From Candidatus Rokuibacteriota bacterium (GTDB taxonomy: Bacteria > Methylomirabilota > Methylomirabilia > Rokubacteriales > CSP1-6), in the NCBI GenBank assembly GCA_016866775.1, contig VGLJ01000055.1, positions 1-33,102 on the forward strand: a DNA stretch of 33,102 nucleotides, given 5' to 3'. Below the pieces are notes generated by a model, which made no database searches, was not told the DNA's origin, and worked only from the letters and a program-made list of their open reading frames with translations. A program made the position numbers and the translations under genes. Positions 2 to 32,960 of this stretch are shown piece by piece. Position 1 is the first letter of the stretch, and every line of letters begins with the position of its first letter.

Positions 2-355
2 CCGGACGGACCGCGAGGGCCACGCCAGCGCGTACAGCCCGGGCTGGCAGCGCTCGCGGCGCTGACCGGCGCGCCCGTCGTGCCGCTCGCGTTCGCCGCG
101 CGCCCCGCGCGACGACTCCACACGTGGGACGCGTTCCTGATCCCGGCGCCGTTCGCGCGATGCGCGGTCGTGTTCGGCGAGGCGGTCTGCGTCCGCCGCG
201 ACGAGGACCGCGCGGCGGCGACTGAACGGCTGGAGCGCGCGCTCGAGAGCGTGACCACGCGAGCCGATACGGCAGTCGCGGAGGGCGGGGATTCACTCCC
301 GGCCCGCAGCGAGGGGGGCATGGGGGGTGCGTCTCGCACCCCCCATGTGAAATGA
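2..355 (+). CDS. DUF374 lysophospholipid acyltransferase-like protein, C-terminal part (5' end outside window)
   Basis: The open frame runs in from the left edge; I read it from base 2, and the true start lies upstream. The first residues include a PDGPRGP motif, the DUF374 counterpart of the FPEGTR motif of glycerolipid acyltransferases. They are followed by GAPVVPLAFAA and a W-D-x-F-L-I-P-x-P-F block typical of the family. DUF374 proteins are acyl-CoA/ACP-dependent acyltransferases, and from memory the family includes LpxJ-type lipid A late acyltransferases. Because waaA and lpxK follow directly, a late acyl transfer to lipid A at the inner membrane is a reasonable inference. The last ~28 residues do not look like family sequence: they are encoded by a palindromic repeat (271-346). 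The stop overlaps the waaA ATG (ATGA). Family call secure; substrate inferred. Confidence 0.85.
   Translation, partial: PDGPRGPRQRVQPGLAALAALTGAPVVPLAFAARPARRLHTWDAFLIPAPFARCAVVFGEAVCVRRDEDRAAATERLERALESVTTRADTAVAEGGDSLPARSEGGMGGASRTPHVK
271..346 (+). repeat. Two-hairpin G-run palindromic element, copy A
   Basis: It begins GGCAGTCGCGGAGGG. Hairpin 1 spans 283-305 (9-bp stem with one G-G mismatch, loop TTCAC). Hairpin 2 spans 320-346 (12-bp perfect stem, loop TCT). A GGGGGG-CAT-GGGGGG double G-run (312-327) overlaps its left arm. It matches copy B at 66 of 76 positions without gaps. It encodes the C-terminus of the DUF374 protein and ends five bases before the waaA ATG. Confidence 0.85.
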
Positions 356-2702: not shown

Positions 2703-3757
2703 AACCCTCGGGCCGCGTGATCGTCCGCCTCCCGAACTGGCTCGGCGACACCGTGATGGCGGTGCCCGCGCTCCAGGCGCTGCGCGGAGGATGGCCCGAC
2801 GCGAGCGTGCTGCTCGCGGGGCCGTGGGCCGGCGTGCTTGCGGGCCAGGGGCTCGGCGACACGCTGGTGAGCTATCCGCGCGCGTGGCGCGGACGGCTCG
2901 CGACGGCCGACGCCGGGCGCGCGTTTCGTGGCGAGCTCGCGCTCCTCCTGCCGAACTCGTTCGAGGCCGCGCTGACCGCGCGGTACTGGGGCGCGCGGCG
3001 CCGCGTCGGCTTCGCGGTCGGCGGCCGATCGCTGCTGCTCACCGACCGTGTCGCGCCTCCGGCGCGTCTTCATCAGGTCGACGCGTACGCGCGCCTCGTC
3101 GAGCATCTCGGGCTCGCGGTCGCGACGCGCACGCCGTCGCTCGGGCCGCTGCCGGCGGACGGCGAGGCACGGACGCGCGCGCGTGCGCTGCTCGACGGCG
3201 CCGCTGCTCCGGCCGGTGGACCTCGAGTGGGCATCCATCTCGGCGCCGACTACGGGCCCGCGAAGCGGTGGCCGGTCCGCCGAGTGATCGAGGGATGCCG
3301 AGCGCTCGAAGCGGCCGGCCTCTCGCCGGTGCTGCTCGGCACGCCGCGCGAAGTCGCCGTCGCCGACGTGATCGCCGGCGCGACGGGCGCGCCGAGCCTC
3401 GCCGGGCGCGACGAGCCCGCGCTCCTGCCCGCGCTGCTGGTCGAGCTCGACGTGATCGTCGCGGGGGATACGGGTGTCGCCCACCTCGCGGCCGCGCTCG
3501 GCACGCCGGTCGTCGCGCTCTTCGGTCCGACGGATCCCGCGCTCACCGCGCCACGAGGCCCGGCGTCGGTGCTGACGCACCCGGTGCTGTGCGCGCCGTG
3601 TTTCTATCGCACGTGTCCGATCGAGCACCCGTGCCTCGACCGCATCACCGCCGACGAAGTGACGAAATCCGTGATTGGGGGGCTCGGGGGGCGCGGTGGT
3701 GCGGGCGGCGCGATTGGGGGGCTCGGGGGGCGCCCGGAGCCCCCCGACTTCAAATGA
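2693..3757 (+). CDS. waaF: ADP-heptose:LPS heptosyltransferase (GT9, WaaF-like)
   Basis: This GT9 enzyme adds L-glycero-D-manno-heptose from ADP-heptose to the LPS inner core. The N-terminus RLPNWLGDTVMAVPAL is the WaaF form of the motif, with Asp19 as likely catalytic base. The C-terminal half has GIHLGADYGPAKRWP, the AGDTGVAHLAAALGTPVVALFGPTDP nucleotide-sugar region and a CPIEHPCLDRI segment also typical of WaaF. The start ATG overlaps lpxK by 10 bases. The ~28 C-terminal residues (VIGGLGGRGGAGG...PDFK) are foreign to the family and are encoded by a tandem G-run repeat with a terminal hairpin (3674-3747). A second GT9 gene (10324-11322) looks like WaaC, so heptosyltransferase II is the better reading here. 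Confidence 0.88.
   Translation: MSVKPSGRVIVRLPNWLGDTVMAVPALQALRGGWPDASVLLAGPWAGVLAGQGLGDTLVSYPRAWRGRLATADAGRAFRGELALLLPNSFEAALTARYWGARRRVGFAVGGRSLLLTDRVAPPARLHQVDAYARLVEHLGLAVATRTPSLGPLPADGEARTRARALLDGAAAPAGGPRVGIHLGADYGPAKRWPVRRVIEGCRALEAAGLSPVLLGTPREVAVADVIAGATGAPSLAGRDEPALLPALLVELDVIVAGDTGVAHLAAALGTPVVALFGPTDPALTAPRGPASVLTHPVLCAPCFYRTCPIEHPCLDRITADEVTKSVIGGLGGRGGAGGAIGGLGGRPEPPDFK
3674..3747 (+). repeat. Tandem G-run element with hairpin, copy C
   Basis: ATTGGGGGGCTCGGGGGGCGC occurs twice in near-tandem (3674-3694 and 3713-3733; the first base of this 21-mer is shown for orientation only), 39 bases apart. The second copy runs into a 9-bp hairpin, TCGGGGGGC (3723-3731) with GCCCCCCGA (3739-3747). 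It resembles the right half of copies A and B (double G-run, then C-run). It encodes the heptosyltransferase tail and ends six bases before the next ATG. Confidence 0.75.
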
Positions 3758-13042: not shown

Positions 13043-13890
13043 CGGGCATCACTCCGGCGTCGGATGATCTCACGCTCCGGGTCGGTGACTTCGAAGGCCC
13101 GCTCGACCTCCTCCTGCATCTCTGCCGCACCAACGAGATCGATCTGGCCGCGCTGCCGGTGCGGACGATCACCGACCAGTACCTCGCGCACCTCGAGGCG
13201 GTCGAGTTCCGCGACCTCGAGACCGCGGGCGCCTATCTCGTGATGGCGGCCACGCTCATCTACCTGAAGTCCAAGCTGCTGGTGCCGCCGGACGAGAACG
13301 CGGTCGAGGAGCTCGACGACGACGCGCTCGCGCTCAAGCAGGAGCTGGAAGAGCGGCTGCGCGAGTACGCGCGCGTGAAGGCGCTGGGCGGGCTGCTCGC
13401 CGAGCGCGAGGCCGCGCAGGCGCTCTCGTGGGGCCGGCCGGGCAGCCAGCTGCCGTCGGCGGACGACATCCCGCTCGAAGACCTGAGCGTGCACCTGCTG
13501 GAGCGCTCGCTCGCGCGTCTCATCGAGGAACAGGCACGCCGCAAGCCGCGCGAGATCGAGCCCAACCCACCCTCGGTCCTCGAGCGGATGACCGAGATCC
13601 TCACGCTGCTGCGCGACACGTGGTCGATGCTGTTCTCCACCCTCGCGGGCGGCGAGCGCCGGCGCGCCGACGTGGTGACGACGCTCCTCGCGGTGCTCGA
13701 GCTCGTGCGTCAGGGCCGGATCCGCGCGCAGCAGACGGAGCTCTTCGGAGAAATCGTGCTGGAACGCCAGCAGACGGAGATGTCCTTCCCGATCGAAAAC
13801 CTCGAGACCCTTGGCAGTCGCGGAGGGTCCGGATTCACTCCGGACCCGGAGCGTGGGGGGCTTGGGGGGTCCGTCTCGGACCCCCCATAG
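13039..13890 (+). CDS. scpA: Segregation and condensation protein A
   Basis: ScpA is the kleisin that bridges the SMC heads and recruits ScpB. The N-terminal FEGPLDLLLHLCRTNEIDL and LPVRTITDQYLAHLE, then ETAGAYLVMAATLIYLKSKLLVP, are diagnostic. A C-terminal winged-helix segment (DVVTTLLAVLELVRQGRIRAQQTELFGEI) would bind the SMC cap. GTG start in a GTGA overlap with trpS. The true family sequence ends near EMSFPIEN; the last ~25 residues (LGSRGGSGFTPDPERGGLGG and onward) are encoded by the two-hairpin repeat at 13813-13888, and the stop TAG is made at its end. scpB follows after eight bases. Confidence 0.95.
   Translation: MTGITPASDDLTLRVGDFEGPLDLLLHLCRTNEIDLAALPVRTITDQYLAHLEAVEFRDLETAGAYLVMAATLIYLKSKLLVPPDENAVEELDDDALALKQELEERLREYARVKALGGLLAEREAAQALSWGRPGSQLPSADDIPLEDLSVHLLERSLARLIEEQARRKPREIEPNPPSVLERMTEILTLLRDTWSMLFSTLAGGERRRADVVTTLLAVLELVRQGRIRAQQTELFGEIVLERQQTEMSFPIENLETLGSRGGSGFTPDPERGGLGGSVSDPP
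13813..13888 (+). repeat. Two-hairpin G-run palindromic element, copy B
   Basis: Hairpin 1: GGGTCCGGA (13825-13833), loop TTCAC, TCCGGACCC (13839-13847), nine perfect pairs. Hairpin 2: 13863-13887, eleven pairs, loop TCT, again overlapping a GGGGGG-CTT-GGGGGG double run. It encodes the last 25 residues of ScpA in a different reading frame from copy A. The scpB ribosome binding site begins at its right edge. Confidence 0.88.
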
Positions 13891-23051: not shown

Positions 23052-25796
23052 TCCCGCGCTCACGCCGATGATGACGCAGTACCGCGAGCTCAAGCAGCGG
23101 TATCCCGACTTCATGCTGCTGTTCCGGCTCGGCGACTTCTACGAGCTGTTCCTCGAGGATGCCGAGCGGGGTGCCAGGATCCTGTCGATCACGCTGACCT
23201 CGCGGCAAGGCGCGCCGATGGCGGGCATCCCGCACCACGCGGCGGAGAGCTACATCGCGCGCTTGATCCAGGCGGGGCAGAAGGTCGCGATCTGCGAGCA
23301 GATGGAGGCGCCGGGCAAGGGCAAGAAGCTCCTGCGCCGGCAAGTGGTTCGCGTGGTCACGCCGGGCACGGTGACCGACACCGCGTACCTCGCGGGCGGC
23401 ACGAACAACTTCCTGCTCGCGGTCGTTCGCGCGCGTGAAGGGACGGGCGTCGCGCTCGTCGACGTCTCGACCGGCGAGTTCTGGGCGGGCGAGGACACGG
23501 CCGCGGACGACGGCGTGCTCGCCGCCGCGCTGCTGCGCCGGCCGTCCGAGATCGTGCTGCCGGAGTCGCTGCGCGAGGCGACCGACCTGCTCGCGCGGCT
23601 CACGGCGACCGGCGCGACGCTGAGCTTCACGGACGCCGCGAGCTTCGGCGGCCGCCGCGCCGGTGCCGAGCTGTGCGCACACTTCGGCGTGAGCAGTCTC
23701 GAGCCGTTCGGCGTCGGCGGGCTCACCGTCGGGCTGCAGGCGGCCGCGGGGGCGCTCGGCTATCTCCGAGCGACCCAGGGCGACGCGCTCGGGCACCTCA
23801 CGCGGCTGCAGCGCCTGCACACCGGTGACGCGCTCGCGCTGGATGCGACGGCGGTGGTGACCCTGGAGCTGATCGAGGCGAGCGCCGGCGGTGCGCGCGG
23901 CTCGCTCTTCGGCGTGCTGGACGAGACCGTGACGCCGATGGGCGCGCGCCTCCTCCGCCAGTGGATGCTGCGGCCGCTCCTCGATCCGGATGCCATCCGC
24001 GCGCGACAGGACGCGATCGCCGCGCTGGTCGAGGCGCCCGCGGTGCGCGACCAGCTTCGCCGCCTCCTCCGCCGCGTCGGCGATCTCGAGCGTCTCACGA
24101 GCCGCGCGATCCTGGGCTTGGCACACGCGCGCGACCTGGTAGGCCTCCGGACGTGCCTTGACCCTCTGGACGACATCCGAAGGGCGTGCGCTGCGCTGAG
24201 CGGTCCCATCGGTAACGCCCCGGGCGGGGCGGTAGCGGGGGCGGCGGATCGGGAGGGCGGGTCGGCGACAACCGCAGGCTCTGCGAGGACAGGAGCCGAT
24301 ACGCCCTCCCGATCCGCCGTCCCCGCCACCGCGCTACTCGAGACGGCACGCGAAGAGATCGCACCGCTGGCCGACGTGCGCGCCCTGCTGAACGACGCCC
24401 TGGAGGACGAGCCGCCGCTGACGCTCCACGACGGCGGCTTGATCCGCGAGGGATGGGACGAGCGCCTCGGCGCGATCGTCACCGAGGCGCGCGAGGCGCG
24501 CGAGTGGATCGCCGGCCTCGAGGAGCGCGAGCGCGCGCGGACCGGCATCGGCAGCCTCCGCGTCCGGTTCAACCGCGTCTTCGGCTACGGCATCGAGGTC
24601 ACGCACGCGCAGGCGGCGCGCGTCCCCGACGACTACGTGCGGCGGCAGACGCTCGCGGGCGCCGAGCGCTACGTGACCACCGAGCTGAAGGAGTACGAAG
24701 CGAAGGTGCTCGGGGCGGACGAGCGCCGCCGCAGGCTCGAGTACGACCTCTTCGACGACGTGCGCCGCCGCGTGGCCGGGCACGCGGTCGCGCTGCTCGC
24801 CACCGCGCGCGCGCTCGCGCGCCTCGACGTGTTCGCGGCGCTCGCGGAGGTCGCCCACGTGCGCGGCCACGTGCGGCCGGTGGTCGATCGCGGCGACGCC
24901 CTGGTCATCACCGAGGGGCGCCATCCCGTACTGGAGGCGCGCGCCGAGGCGCCGGTGACCGCGAACGACCTGGCGCTGGACGACGCCGCGCGGATCGTCA
25001 TCCTCACGGGCCCGAACATGGCCGGCAAGTCCGTCTACCTCCGTCAGACCGGCCACATCGTGCTCATGGCGCAGATGGGCGCCTTCGTCCCCGCGCGCGA
25101 GGCGCGCATCGGCGTGGTCGATCGGCTCTTCACGCGCGTCGGGGCGCAGGACAACCTGAGCCGGGGGCAGTCGACCTTCCTCGTGGAGATGGTGGAGACC
25201 GCGACGATCCTCAACAACGTCACGCCGCGCAGCCTCGTGCTGCTCGACGAGGTCGGCCGGGGCACCTCGACCTTCGACGGGCTCGCGATCGCGTGGGCGG
25301 TGGTGGAGGCGCTCCACGATGCGTGCGGTGGTGGGCCACGCGAGCGGGCGGCGGCAGAGCCGCCGGGAGCCCGCGAGTTCATGGACCGCCCCGGGCCCGC
25401 GAGTCCAAAGGTCCTCTTCGCGACGCACTTCCACGAGCTGACGCAGCTCGCGGATCGGCTCGCCGGCGTCCGTAACTTCCACGTCGCCGTCCGGGAGTGG
25501 AACGACGAGATCATCTTCCTCCACAAGGTCCGCGCCGGATCTACCGATCGGAGCTACGGAATCCAGGTGGCGCGCCTCGCCGGGCTGCCGGCGCCGGTCA
25601 TCGCCCGCGCGAAGGCGCTCCTCGCGGAGCTGGAAGCCACCGGCAACCAGCGCGCCGACGTCGCCGACGCCGAGCAGCTCGGGCTGTTCGTCGCGCCGCG
25701 CGACCCGATCGTGACCGAGCTCGCGCACCTCGACCTCGCGCACGTCACGCCGATCGAGGCGTTGAACCTGCTCGCGAAGTGGCAGGCGCGACAGAC

Positions 25797-27516: not shown

Positions 27517-28500
27517 ATGACGCTGCCGCTGCTCGTGATCGCGGGACCCACCGGCGTCGGGAAGACCGCCACCGCCGTCGCCCTGGGCCGTCGCGTGCCG
27601 CTCGAGGTCGTCAGCGCCGATTCGCGCCAGGTCTACCGGTTCATGGACGTCGCCACCGGCAAGCCGTCGCCCGAGCAGCGCGCGGCGGTCCGGCATCACC
27701 TGATCGACGTGGTCGACCCGGACGACCGGTATCAGGCCGCCCGCTTCCGCGAGGACGCTGCCGCCGCGATCGCGGACATCCACCGGCGCGGCAAGCTCCC
27801 CGCGGTGGTGGGCGGCACCGGGCTCTACATTCGCGCGCTGCTGCGGGGGCTCGACCCCGCGCCGCCGGCGGACCTCGCGTTCCGTCACGAGCTGACCGCC
27901 GTGGCCGCGCGCGAGGGACGGGGAGCGCTGCACGCGCGTCTCGCGCGGACGGCGCCGACGGTGGCGCGCCGGCTGCATCCGCACGACGACGTGCGGGTGA
28001 TTCGCGCGCTGGAAAAGCTGCGCGCGGGCCATGGCGTGGAAGCGCGCGCGTGGAGTCCGGCGCGTGACACGCGCGCGGACGGCTACGACGTCGCGTTCGT
28101 CGGGCTCACGATGGAGCGGGGCGCGCTCAACGCGCGGCTCGAAGCGCGCGCGGCGGCGATGGCGCGCGGCGGGTTGATGGACGAGGTGCGGGCGCTGCTG
28201 GCGCGCGGCTACGACGCGCGACTGTCGGCGCTCCAGGGCATCGGCTATCGGGAGTTCGTCCGCGTGGTGCGCGGCGAGCTCGCGGAAGCCGAAGCGATCC
28301 GGCTCATGCAGCGCGACACCGTGCGCTACGCGAAGCGCCAGCACACGTGGTTCGCGCGCGAGCCGGAGGTCGCGTGGCTGGACGTGACGGGTGACGAGGA
28401 CGTGGAGACGAGCGCGACACGCATCATGAGCGTCTTGAACCAGAGGGGGTTTGGGGGTCCTCAGTTGTGTGGCCCCCATGTCCAGGGAGGACTCATCTGA
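27517..28500 (+). CDS. miaA: tRNA dimethylallyltransferase
   Basis: MiaA prenylates A37 of tRNAs that read UNN codons. The P-loop GPTGVGKT (10-17), SADSRQVYRFMDVATGKPS, HHLIDVVDPDDRYQAARF, VVGGTGLYIRALLRG and a late QGIGYREF and RYAKRQHTWF are all present. The start ATG 27517 has AAGGA four bases upstream; an in-frame TTG seven codons earlier is less likely. The last ~18 residues (QRGFGGPQLCGPHVQGGLI) are encoded by a G-run repeat (28443-28485), extending the protein beyond its normal end. The stop forms a CTGA overlap with the proposed hflX start. miaA next to hflX and mutL is a conserved grouping. Confidence 0.95.
   Translation: MTLPLLVIAGPTGVGKTATAVALGRRVPLEVVSADSRQVYRFMDVATGKPSPEQRAAVRHHLIDVVDPDDRYQAARFREDAAAAIADIHRRGKLPAVVGGTGLYIRALLRGLDPAPPADLAFRHELTAVAAREGRGALHARLARTAPTVARRLHPHDDVRVIRALEKLRAGHGVEARAWSPARDTRADGYDVAFVGLTMERGALNARLEARAAAMARGGLMDEVRALLARGYDARLSALQGIGYREFVRVVRGELAEAEAIRLMQRDTVRYAKRQHTWFAREPEVAWLDVTGDEDVETSATRIMSVLNQRGFGGPQLCGPHVQGGLI
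28443..28485 (+). repeat. G-run element at the miaA 3' end, copy E
   Basis: GAGGGGG-TTT-GGGGG-TCC is followed by a loop and GGCCCCCATGTCCAG. The G-run and C-run pair as TGGGGGTC with GGCCCCCA (eight pairs, one wobble). The block is homologous to the reverse complement of 32095-32135 (three substitutions and a few one-base gaps in ~40 bases). It encodes the MiaA tail and lies just before the hflX ribosome binding site. Confidence 0.75.
28484..28499 (+). promoter_or_regulatory. Strong ribosome binding site with CUG start for hflX
   Basis: AGGGAGG (28484-28490) is followed after six bases by CTG (28497-28499), in frame with hflX and overlapping the miaA TGA as CTGA. Neither in-frame GTG (28467 or 28551) has a comparable Shine-Dalgarno sequence. 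Confidence 0.6.
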
Positions 28501-31530: not shown

Positions 31531-32960
31531 GTGCCGGCGGCCGCACGCTCGTTCGTCCCGTCATCGCCATCGTCGGGCGCCCGAACGTGGGCAAGTCCAC
31601 GCTCTTCAACCGCCTGGTCGGGCGGCGCCAGTCGCTCGTGCGCGACGTGCCCGGTGTCACGCGCGATCGCCTCTACGGGCAGGTGACGTTCGAGCGATGG
31701 CAGGCGACGGCGATCGACACCGGCGGCTTCGACCCCTTGTCCACCGAGCCGCTGATCGAGGCCGTGCGGCGCCAGGTCGACGCCGCGATCGCGGAGGCGG
31801 ACCTCGTGCTGTTCGTCGTCGACGCGCGTGCCGGGGTCACCGCGCTCGATCTCGAGATCGCCGGCCTGCTCCGGCGCTGCGGGCGTCCCGTGATCCTCGT
31901 CGCGAACAAGGTCGAGAGCGACGCGCAGACGGCCGCGCTCGCGGAGCTCTTCACGCTCGGCCTCGGCGAGCCGGTGCCGGTGTCCGCCGAGCACGGCCGC
32001 GGCGTCGGCGAGCTGCTCGAGATCGCGCGCGACCGCGCGCCGCGCGCCCCGCTACGGAAGCCGGAGCAAGGCCCTTTGGACATGGGGCCCGCCTCTGAAC
32101 ATGGGGCCCCACACCTGAAGGACCCCAAACCCCTCTCGAGGACCCCAATCCCTCATGTCGCGATCATCGGACGGCCGAACGCCGGCAAGTCGTCGCTCGT
32201 CAACGCGATGGTCGGCGGCGAGCGGGTGCTCGTGCACGAGGCGCCCGGCACGACGCGCGATGCCGTCGACACGGCGATCGAGGTCGACGGCCGCCCGTAC
32301 GTGCTCGTCGACACGGCGGGGATCCGGCGCAAGGGCCGCGTGAGCGAGGCGCTGGAGAAGCTGTCCGTCGTCATGGCGCTGAAGAGCCTCGAGCGCTGCC
32401 AGGTCGCGCTGATCGTCGTCGACGCCAGCGAAGGGCTCGCCGCGCAGGACGCGCACATCGCGGGGTACGCGCACGAGGCCGGGCGCGCGAGCGTGATCGT
32501 CGTCAACAAATGGGACCTCGTCCCGCCGGGCATGGTGCGCAAGGCCGAGGTGATCGAGCAGATCCGCGAGCGCCTGTCGTTCCTCGACTACGCGCCGATC
32601 TGCTTCACGTCGGCGCTGCGCGGCGAGGGGCTCGACGATCTCTTCACGACCATCGACGAGGTCGCGCGCGCGGCGCGCCGCCGCGTGCCGGCCATGGACG
32701 TCACGCGCGTCGTGCGCGAGGCGATCGACCGGCGGCCGATCTCGGTGGGTGGCGCGCCGCTCACGCTGCAGGCGGCGGCGCAGGTGAGCGTGGAGCCCCC
32801 GACGTTCGCGCTGCGCGTGAACCGCCCCGACGAGGTGCACTTCTCGTACGAGCGCTATCTCGTGAAGTCGCTGCGGCGCGTCTTCGACTTCACCGGATCG
32901 CCCGTGCGCCTGTCGCTGCGCAAGGCGACCGGGCCGCGCGCGCGGAGGGTCGAGCGCTGA
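31527..32960 (+). CDS. der: Double-domain ribosome assembly GTPase Der (EngA)
   Basis: Der binds the 50S subunit during maturation and carries two tandem G domains and a C-terminal KH-like domain. First G domain: IVGRPNVGKSTLFNRL, DTGGF, NKVE. Second: IIGRPNAGKSSLVNAM, DTAGIRRKG, NKWDL. The KH-like end runs to LRKATGPRARR. GTG 31527 overlaps the DUF512 stop (GTGA), giving 477 residues. The linker between the G domains (about 182-210; GPLDMGPASEHGAPHL and onward) is not the usual acidic linker but the translation of an inverted G/C-run repeat (32071-32148). All GTPase motifs remain. The stop gives a second CTGA junction. Confidence 0.95.
   Translation: MSAGGRTLVRPVIAIVGRPNVGKSTLFNRLVGRRQSLVRDVPGVTRDRLYGQVTFERWQATAIDTGGFDPLSTEPLIEAVRRQVDAAIAEADLVLFVVDARAGVTALDLEIAGLLRRCGRPVILVANKVESDAQTAALAELFTLGLGEPVPVSAEHGRGVGELLEIARDRAPRAPLRKPEQGPLDMGPASEHGAPHLKDPKPLSRTPIPHVAIIGRPNAGKSSLVNAMVGGERVLVHEAPGTTRDAVDTAIEVDGRPYVLVDTAGIRRKGRVSEALEKLSVVMALKSLERCQVALIVVDASEGLAAQDAHIAGYAHEAGRASVIVVNKWDLVPPGMVRKAEVIEQIRERLSFLDYAPICFTSALRGEGLDDLFTTIDEVARAARRRVPAMDVTRVVREAIDRRPISVGGAPLTLQAAAQVSVEPPTFALRVNRPDEVHFSYERYLVKSLRRVFDFTGSPVRLSLRKATGPRARRVER
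32071..32148 (-). repeat. Inverted G/C-run element in the Der linker, copy F
   Basis: The minus strand of 32095-32135 matches copy E. The block also holds internal direct repeats: ACATGGGGCCC twice (32080-32090 and 32099-32109) and AGGACCCCAA twice (32119-32128 and 32139-32148, exactly 20 bases apart). It is read through in frame and forms the hinge between the two GTPase domains. Confidence 0.75.
32944..32959 (+). promoter_or_regulatory. Strong ribosome binding site with CUG start for the last ORF
   Basis: GGAGGG (32944-32949), inside the der 3' end, lies seven bases before CTG 32957, which overlaps the der TGA as CTGA. The arrangement mirrors the hflX start. Confidence 0.5.

Follow-up and report, generated by a model that had tools for sequence, protein, structure and literature searches.

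Dispersed short palindromic repeats often lie directly before Shine-Dalgarno sequences and are also present within miaA and der in a Rokubacteria genome

Matching segments in miaA and der and the repeat family to which they belong

The window, a 33,102-nt stretch of the genome of a Candidatus Rokuibacteriota bacterium, carries miaA and the adjoining hflX and, further downstream, the gene of the GTPase Der. By aligning positions 28443-28485 (+) near the 3′ end of miaA with the reverse complement of 32095-32135 in der, 3 substitutions and 4 single-base gaps in G/C runs were found over approximately 45 columns. The local score of 47 exceeded the maximum of 41 obtained for random pairs of real 100-base stretches of the window, of which as many as 2,000 were drawn, and together with the genome-wide matches given below this indicates that the likeness noticed by a first-pass annotation is real. 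The miaA segment (copy A, 28444-28485, + strand; model match C55:28445-28491, E 2.3e-15), with hairpin arms at about 28453-28460 and 28471-28477, lies directly 5′ of a GGAGG (28486-28490, + strand), the presumed Shine-Dalgarno (SD) sequence of hflX. It had been described as extending MiaA, and it is indeed inserted in frame near the 3′ end, but MiaA ends at its own stop 4 codons further and not on the insert. From homology, a CTG (28497-28499) that overlaps the miaA stop codon may be the start of hflX.

The second segment (copy B, 32089-32135, − strand; model match E 1.2e-16) runs antisense through the linker between the GTPase domains of Der, consistent with the inverted copy annotated in the middle of this gene, but the match seen at first covers only the inner part of a nested composite. 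Copy B is enclosed by the 3′ half (32071-32094, − strand; nhmmer partial match 32071-32090) and the 5′ half (32136-32157, − strand; weak nhmmer partial match 32138-32152, E 0.29) of an outer copy, and the two halves fold with each other. Composites with one copy within the loop of another were found at L031, L032 and L033, the last two having the same layout as the Der site.

Next, the repeat, hereafter family-1, was searched for in the entire assembly (5.13 Mb, 159 contigs, 97.5% complete). At least 41 BLAST matches were obtained to each of copies A and B. When 55 copies were aligned and turned into a covariance model, this model matched 112 sites at E<=1, with a best E of 1.2e-17, so that about 100 further copies exist. 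For the analyses below, 92 copies with E<1e-4 were used, with genes called by a custom-built caller. The unit is 5′-AGGGG(G)TTTGGGG(G)TCC-loop-GGGG-CCCC(C)ATGTTCAA-3′ and forms one G/C hairpin; it measures 39-42 nt in most copies, and the majority consensus of the 55 copies reads GAGGGGTTTGGGG(G)TCC-TCAGTTGTG-GGGCCCC(C)ATGTTCAA, followed by NGG. Two length forms of the hairpin arms were found among the 83 of 92 copies that could be parsed, 4/4 in 51 and 5/5 in 23, with unequal arms in 9; the matched lengths could mirror two subfamilies. A 68-nt form with an additional loop hairpin is present in 3 of the 92 copies, copies stand in tandem at L039 and L026, and additional copies sit within the hairpins of a second repeat family. 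The RNA hairpin is predicted to fold with −17.8 kcal/mol, at a modest z of −1.88 against shuffles, and RNAalifold found no two-sided compensatory pair among the family-1 copies. No Rfam match at the gathering score was obtained within the window, nor any match in viral contigs to one exact degenerate pattern of the repeat.

Filled and empty sites and related repeats in other Rokubacteria

Orthologous sites were compared with those of relatives. None of the 57 family genomes searched is of the same genus, so that no nearly identical pair of filled and empty sites is among them. In all six Rokubacteria Der homologues, a linker segment of 24-27 residues is absent where this genome carries the composite. 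Among named genomes, the closest Der homologues are those of Candidatus Rokuibacteriota/Rokubacteria metagenome-assembled genomes, at 61-71% identity (6 of the 80 loci kept), which places the window in a Rokubacteria genome. Similarly, in 5/5 relatives with both miaA and hflX, the MiaA C-terminus lacks the insert and a G-rich GGAG-type sequence is kept at the junction. Through comparison with these five junctions, the bounds of copy A could be estimated, pointing to an insert of 42 nt, or 14 codons, between CCAG and GGAGG, with CCAG^GGAGG as the probable insertion target.

The clearest empty site was found upstream of a gene that we take, from its protein motif, to be iscS-like. The relatives G013, G004 and G038 have TGAGGAG, TAAGGAG and TGAGGAG, respectively, upstream of the start codon, and in this genome the element lies between the TGA and the AGGAG. 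Among 30 loci compared, 21 could be parsed (this genome included) and 9 could not; the parsed loci have an SD in 18 cases and a hairpin element in 2, this genome and G009, which leaves 19 of the 20 parsed relatives without one. The G009 hairpin (L395) is different but related and likewise abuts the SD of this junction, which suggests repeated insertion at one site.

In-frame copies were found in the der, miaA and HisF-like genes. For HisF, 30 loci were compared and rejected as an empty site: the loop is naturally variable in length in relatives, and this obscures the precise position of an empty site. Among same-class relatives, the HisF genes at L310, L311, L312 and L315 show this length-variable loop, with short tandem-repeat insertions in several. 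A spermidine-synthase-like gene was dropped as a comparison site, its relatives being only 30-38% identical.

Thus the element is dispersed in about 100 copies and missing at the tested orthologous sites; some copies are nested or in tandem, and some are translated in frame as part of a protein. The proposal that it is dispersed and probably mobile is borne out by the genome-wide copies and the filled and empty sites, and it is from these that we infer mobility.

Of the 57 family genomes, only this one carries repeats of the same type: all scores above 38.5 bits were found here, with 87 matches at E<=1e-6. At E<=0.1, the covariance model matched in 27 of 60 genomes (this one included) and in none of the other 33. 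These cousin repeats number 22-55 each in G033, G015, G017, G030, G035 and G004, and 14 in G009; they are longer, have two hairpins, and lie mainly beside antisense gene ends. In 29/48 unique copies, a reverse-complement stop codon begins precisely 2 nt downstream of CCCCCAT, compared with 0-5 copies at each other offset tested. At L171 and L197 (G013), a cousin repeat is followed, from about position 1500, by tandem partial copies (GGCGGCGGAGCCTGGGGGG... units).

A similar two-hairpin layout characterizes a related second family in this genome, family-2 (about 78 bp), which has at least 40 matches. In the window it is present at 277-344 (+ strand) and at a gene junction at 13819-13886 (+ strand), with AGGAG and the ATG of the next gene directly after. 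Two further segments of the window were observed. Within mutS (24216-24345), an imperfect 51-nt inverted repeat, 80% complementary with a 28-nt gap, encodes a low-complexity segment in frame and may be another palindromic insert. At about 3675-3757, the glycine-rich tail of a predicted gene has G-run palindromes like those of the repeats and is possibly a decayed copy.

Placement beside Shine-Dalgarno sequences and stop codons

Approximately half of the family-1 copies lie in sense orientation exactly 5′ of an SD, often straight after the stop codon of the upstream gene. An SD starting at the 3′ edge and followed by the start codon of a coding ORF was found in 42/92 copies, compared with 2/92 in the mirror test of the antisense side and 28/3,000 at random positions. 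Copies do occur on both strands, as implied by the earlier description of the insertion as orientation-independent, but this wording has to be corrected because orientation is strongly fixed beside SDs (42 sense versus 2 antisense). The stop codon of the upstream gene lies between −6 and +4 relative to the first G-run in 21/92 copies, versus 121/20,000 random positions, and for six copies the TTCA of the element supplies the TGA at which an antisense gene terminates.

GG-type motifs predominate after the in-gene copies: among the 21 parsed, the motif was GGCG in 9, GGC in 3, GGA in 2 and other GG in 4, with none in 3; lengths were not enriched for multiples of three among the in-gene copies (11/24, compared with 24/38 for SD copies). 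At non-coding sites of the loci analyzed, 33 copies were found for about 241 GGAG sites versus 4 for about 619 GGCG sites, while GGAG did no better at coding sites (1/2,645 versus 9/10,434 for GGCG), all these counts coming from loci chosen for containing copies and with 14/92 copies unparsed. As for target-site duplication, words shared between the flanks were slightly longer than in shuffled pairs, with 11 of 500 shuffles reaching the observed mean (91/92 copies).

These patterns would be explained by directional insertion 5′ of (N)GG[A/C]G. Where operons are compact, stop codon and SD often overlap, as in TGAGGAG, and insertion at A^GGAG would harm neither gene because the overlapping stop and SD get split. 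The remaining survivors would be those in flexible linkers and at protein ends, where no gene is damaged. In the mRNA, the hairpin would probably stand about 7-8 nt before the SD, where it may tune translation, and it need not have been selected for that. It is also conceivable, at a tentative level, that the insertion machinery recognizes the SD context itself, perhaps because single-stranded DNA is exposed, or by way of an RNA intermediate, where translation starts, which would give one orientation between stop codon and SD. Selective retention could yield the same GGAG versus GGCG pattern.

Origin of the repeat and comparison with known palindromic elements

In our view, a REP-like mini-palindrome that is lineage-specific and non-autonomous is the likely nature of the element. 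A host-made cis-regulatory RNA hairpin, multiplied before SDs for translation control and not a selfish element, would account for the sense copies flush with SD and start codon and for the predicted fold, but appears unlikely. The folding z-score is modest, the SD is already native in relatives at the miaA-hflX and iscS-like junctions, and a pre-SD regulatory role is impossible for many copies because they lie in genes (in both orientations), in other repeats, or antisense at gene ends. Resemblance of G/C runs by chance would be eased by the GC content of 72.5% in the window, but it is hardly credible given about 100 copies with E values down to that of the best match; low complexity is ruled out by the silence of the same model in 33 of 60 genomes. 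Local duplication with inversion, which the first-pass annotation had also disfavored, deserves equally little credence: copies on both strands and nested in each other argue against it, and the genome-wide copies rule it out.

As for a mover, the transposase families searched were Y1 and IS110. A classical REP whose RAYT (Y1) transposase has been lost or is absent from the assembly would fit the size, the hairpin, the copy number, the presence within genes and the contact with stop codons, which agree with REPs as portrayed in PMC3733652. We nevertheless regard it as improbable, since Y1_Tnp (PF01797) had no match in this nearly complete genome, with control genomes positive in 5/14, nor in the six cousin-rich relatives G033, G015, G017, G035, G030 and G004, G009 having one partial match; mobilization by RAYT in cis is thus unsupported, and neither a GTAG nor a CGTC tag is seen in the consensus. 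Descent as a miniature derivative (MITE) from another insertion-sequence family such as IS110 would agree with three IS110-type matches over the cut-off in this genome, but is very improbable: the repeat is present in none of five IS110 loci, and the ends of the consensus are not inverted repeats of each other.

The REP-like mini-palindrome was further compared with known repeats. According to PMC3733652, REPs of the GTAG and CGTC superfamilies are high-copy hairpins of 20-40 bp located between genes that run in the same direction or converge; they touch stop codons and are sometimes intragenic, and RAYT transposases are regarded as the movers of the GTAG class. Family-1 likewise is a short palindromic repeat in high copy, with stop-codon contact and intragenic copies. 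It differs in having no terminal GTAG/CGTC tag (55 copies, by inspection), no Y1/RAYT gene detected in its own genome, and a position flush 5′ of the SD in fixed orientation, whereas the distances of REPs to downstream ORFs vary (PMC3733652). Rickettsia palindromic elements, described in PMC2229807 and PMC3733652 as small palindromes in frame within conserved protein genes, share the in-frame insertion in such genes; however, the repeats tabulated in PMC2229807 are about 100-200 bp compared with 39-42 nt, and family-1 is GC-rich, belongs to a different phylum and is devoid of a 12-bp terminal inverted repeat. The MITE-type Correia/NEMIS, ERIC and RUP repeats are, according to PMC2229807, similarly non-autonomous and dispersed with hairpin transcripts, whereas family-1 is without terminal inverted repeats, TA ends or a clear target-site duplication. 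The TAACTGA repeats of marine Beggiatoaceae also lie a few nucleotides upstream of start codons, but PMC4679880 presents them as heptamer direct repeats with canonical ribosome-binding sites rare nearby, whereas a canonical SD is next to family-1. Insertion of repeats into one another has also been reported for pneumococcal repeats (PMC3049150).

High copy number, hairpin, stop-codon contact and in-frame intragenic copies are therefore already known for small palindromes (PMC3733652; PMC2229807); what is different here is the lack of a GTAG/CGTC tag and of a detectable RAYT, and the directional SD-flush placement. Among the texts returned by a full-text literature search, we found no description of such repeats in Rokubacteria, Rokubacteriales or Methylomirabilota. 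These are mini-palindromes in a lineage in which the usual RAYT is mostly undetectable. Their precise and directional position next to SDs raises the testable questions of how repeats this short are moved when the usual transposase is missing and what effect a hairpin before the SD has on the translation of dozens of operons. In addition, the in-frame copies in the der, miaA and HisF-like genes show the way in which conserved enzymes gain segments from short repeats.
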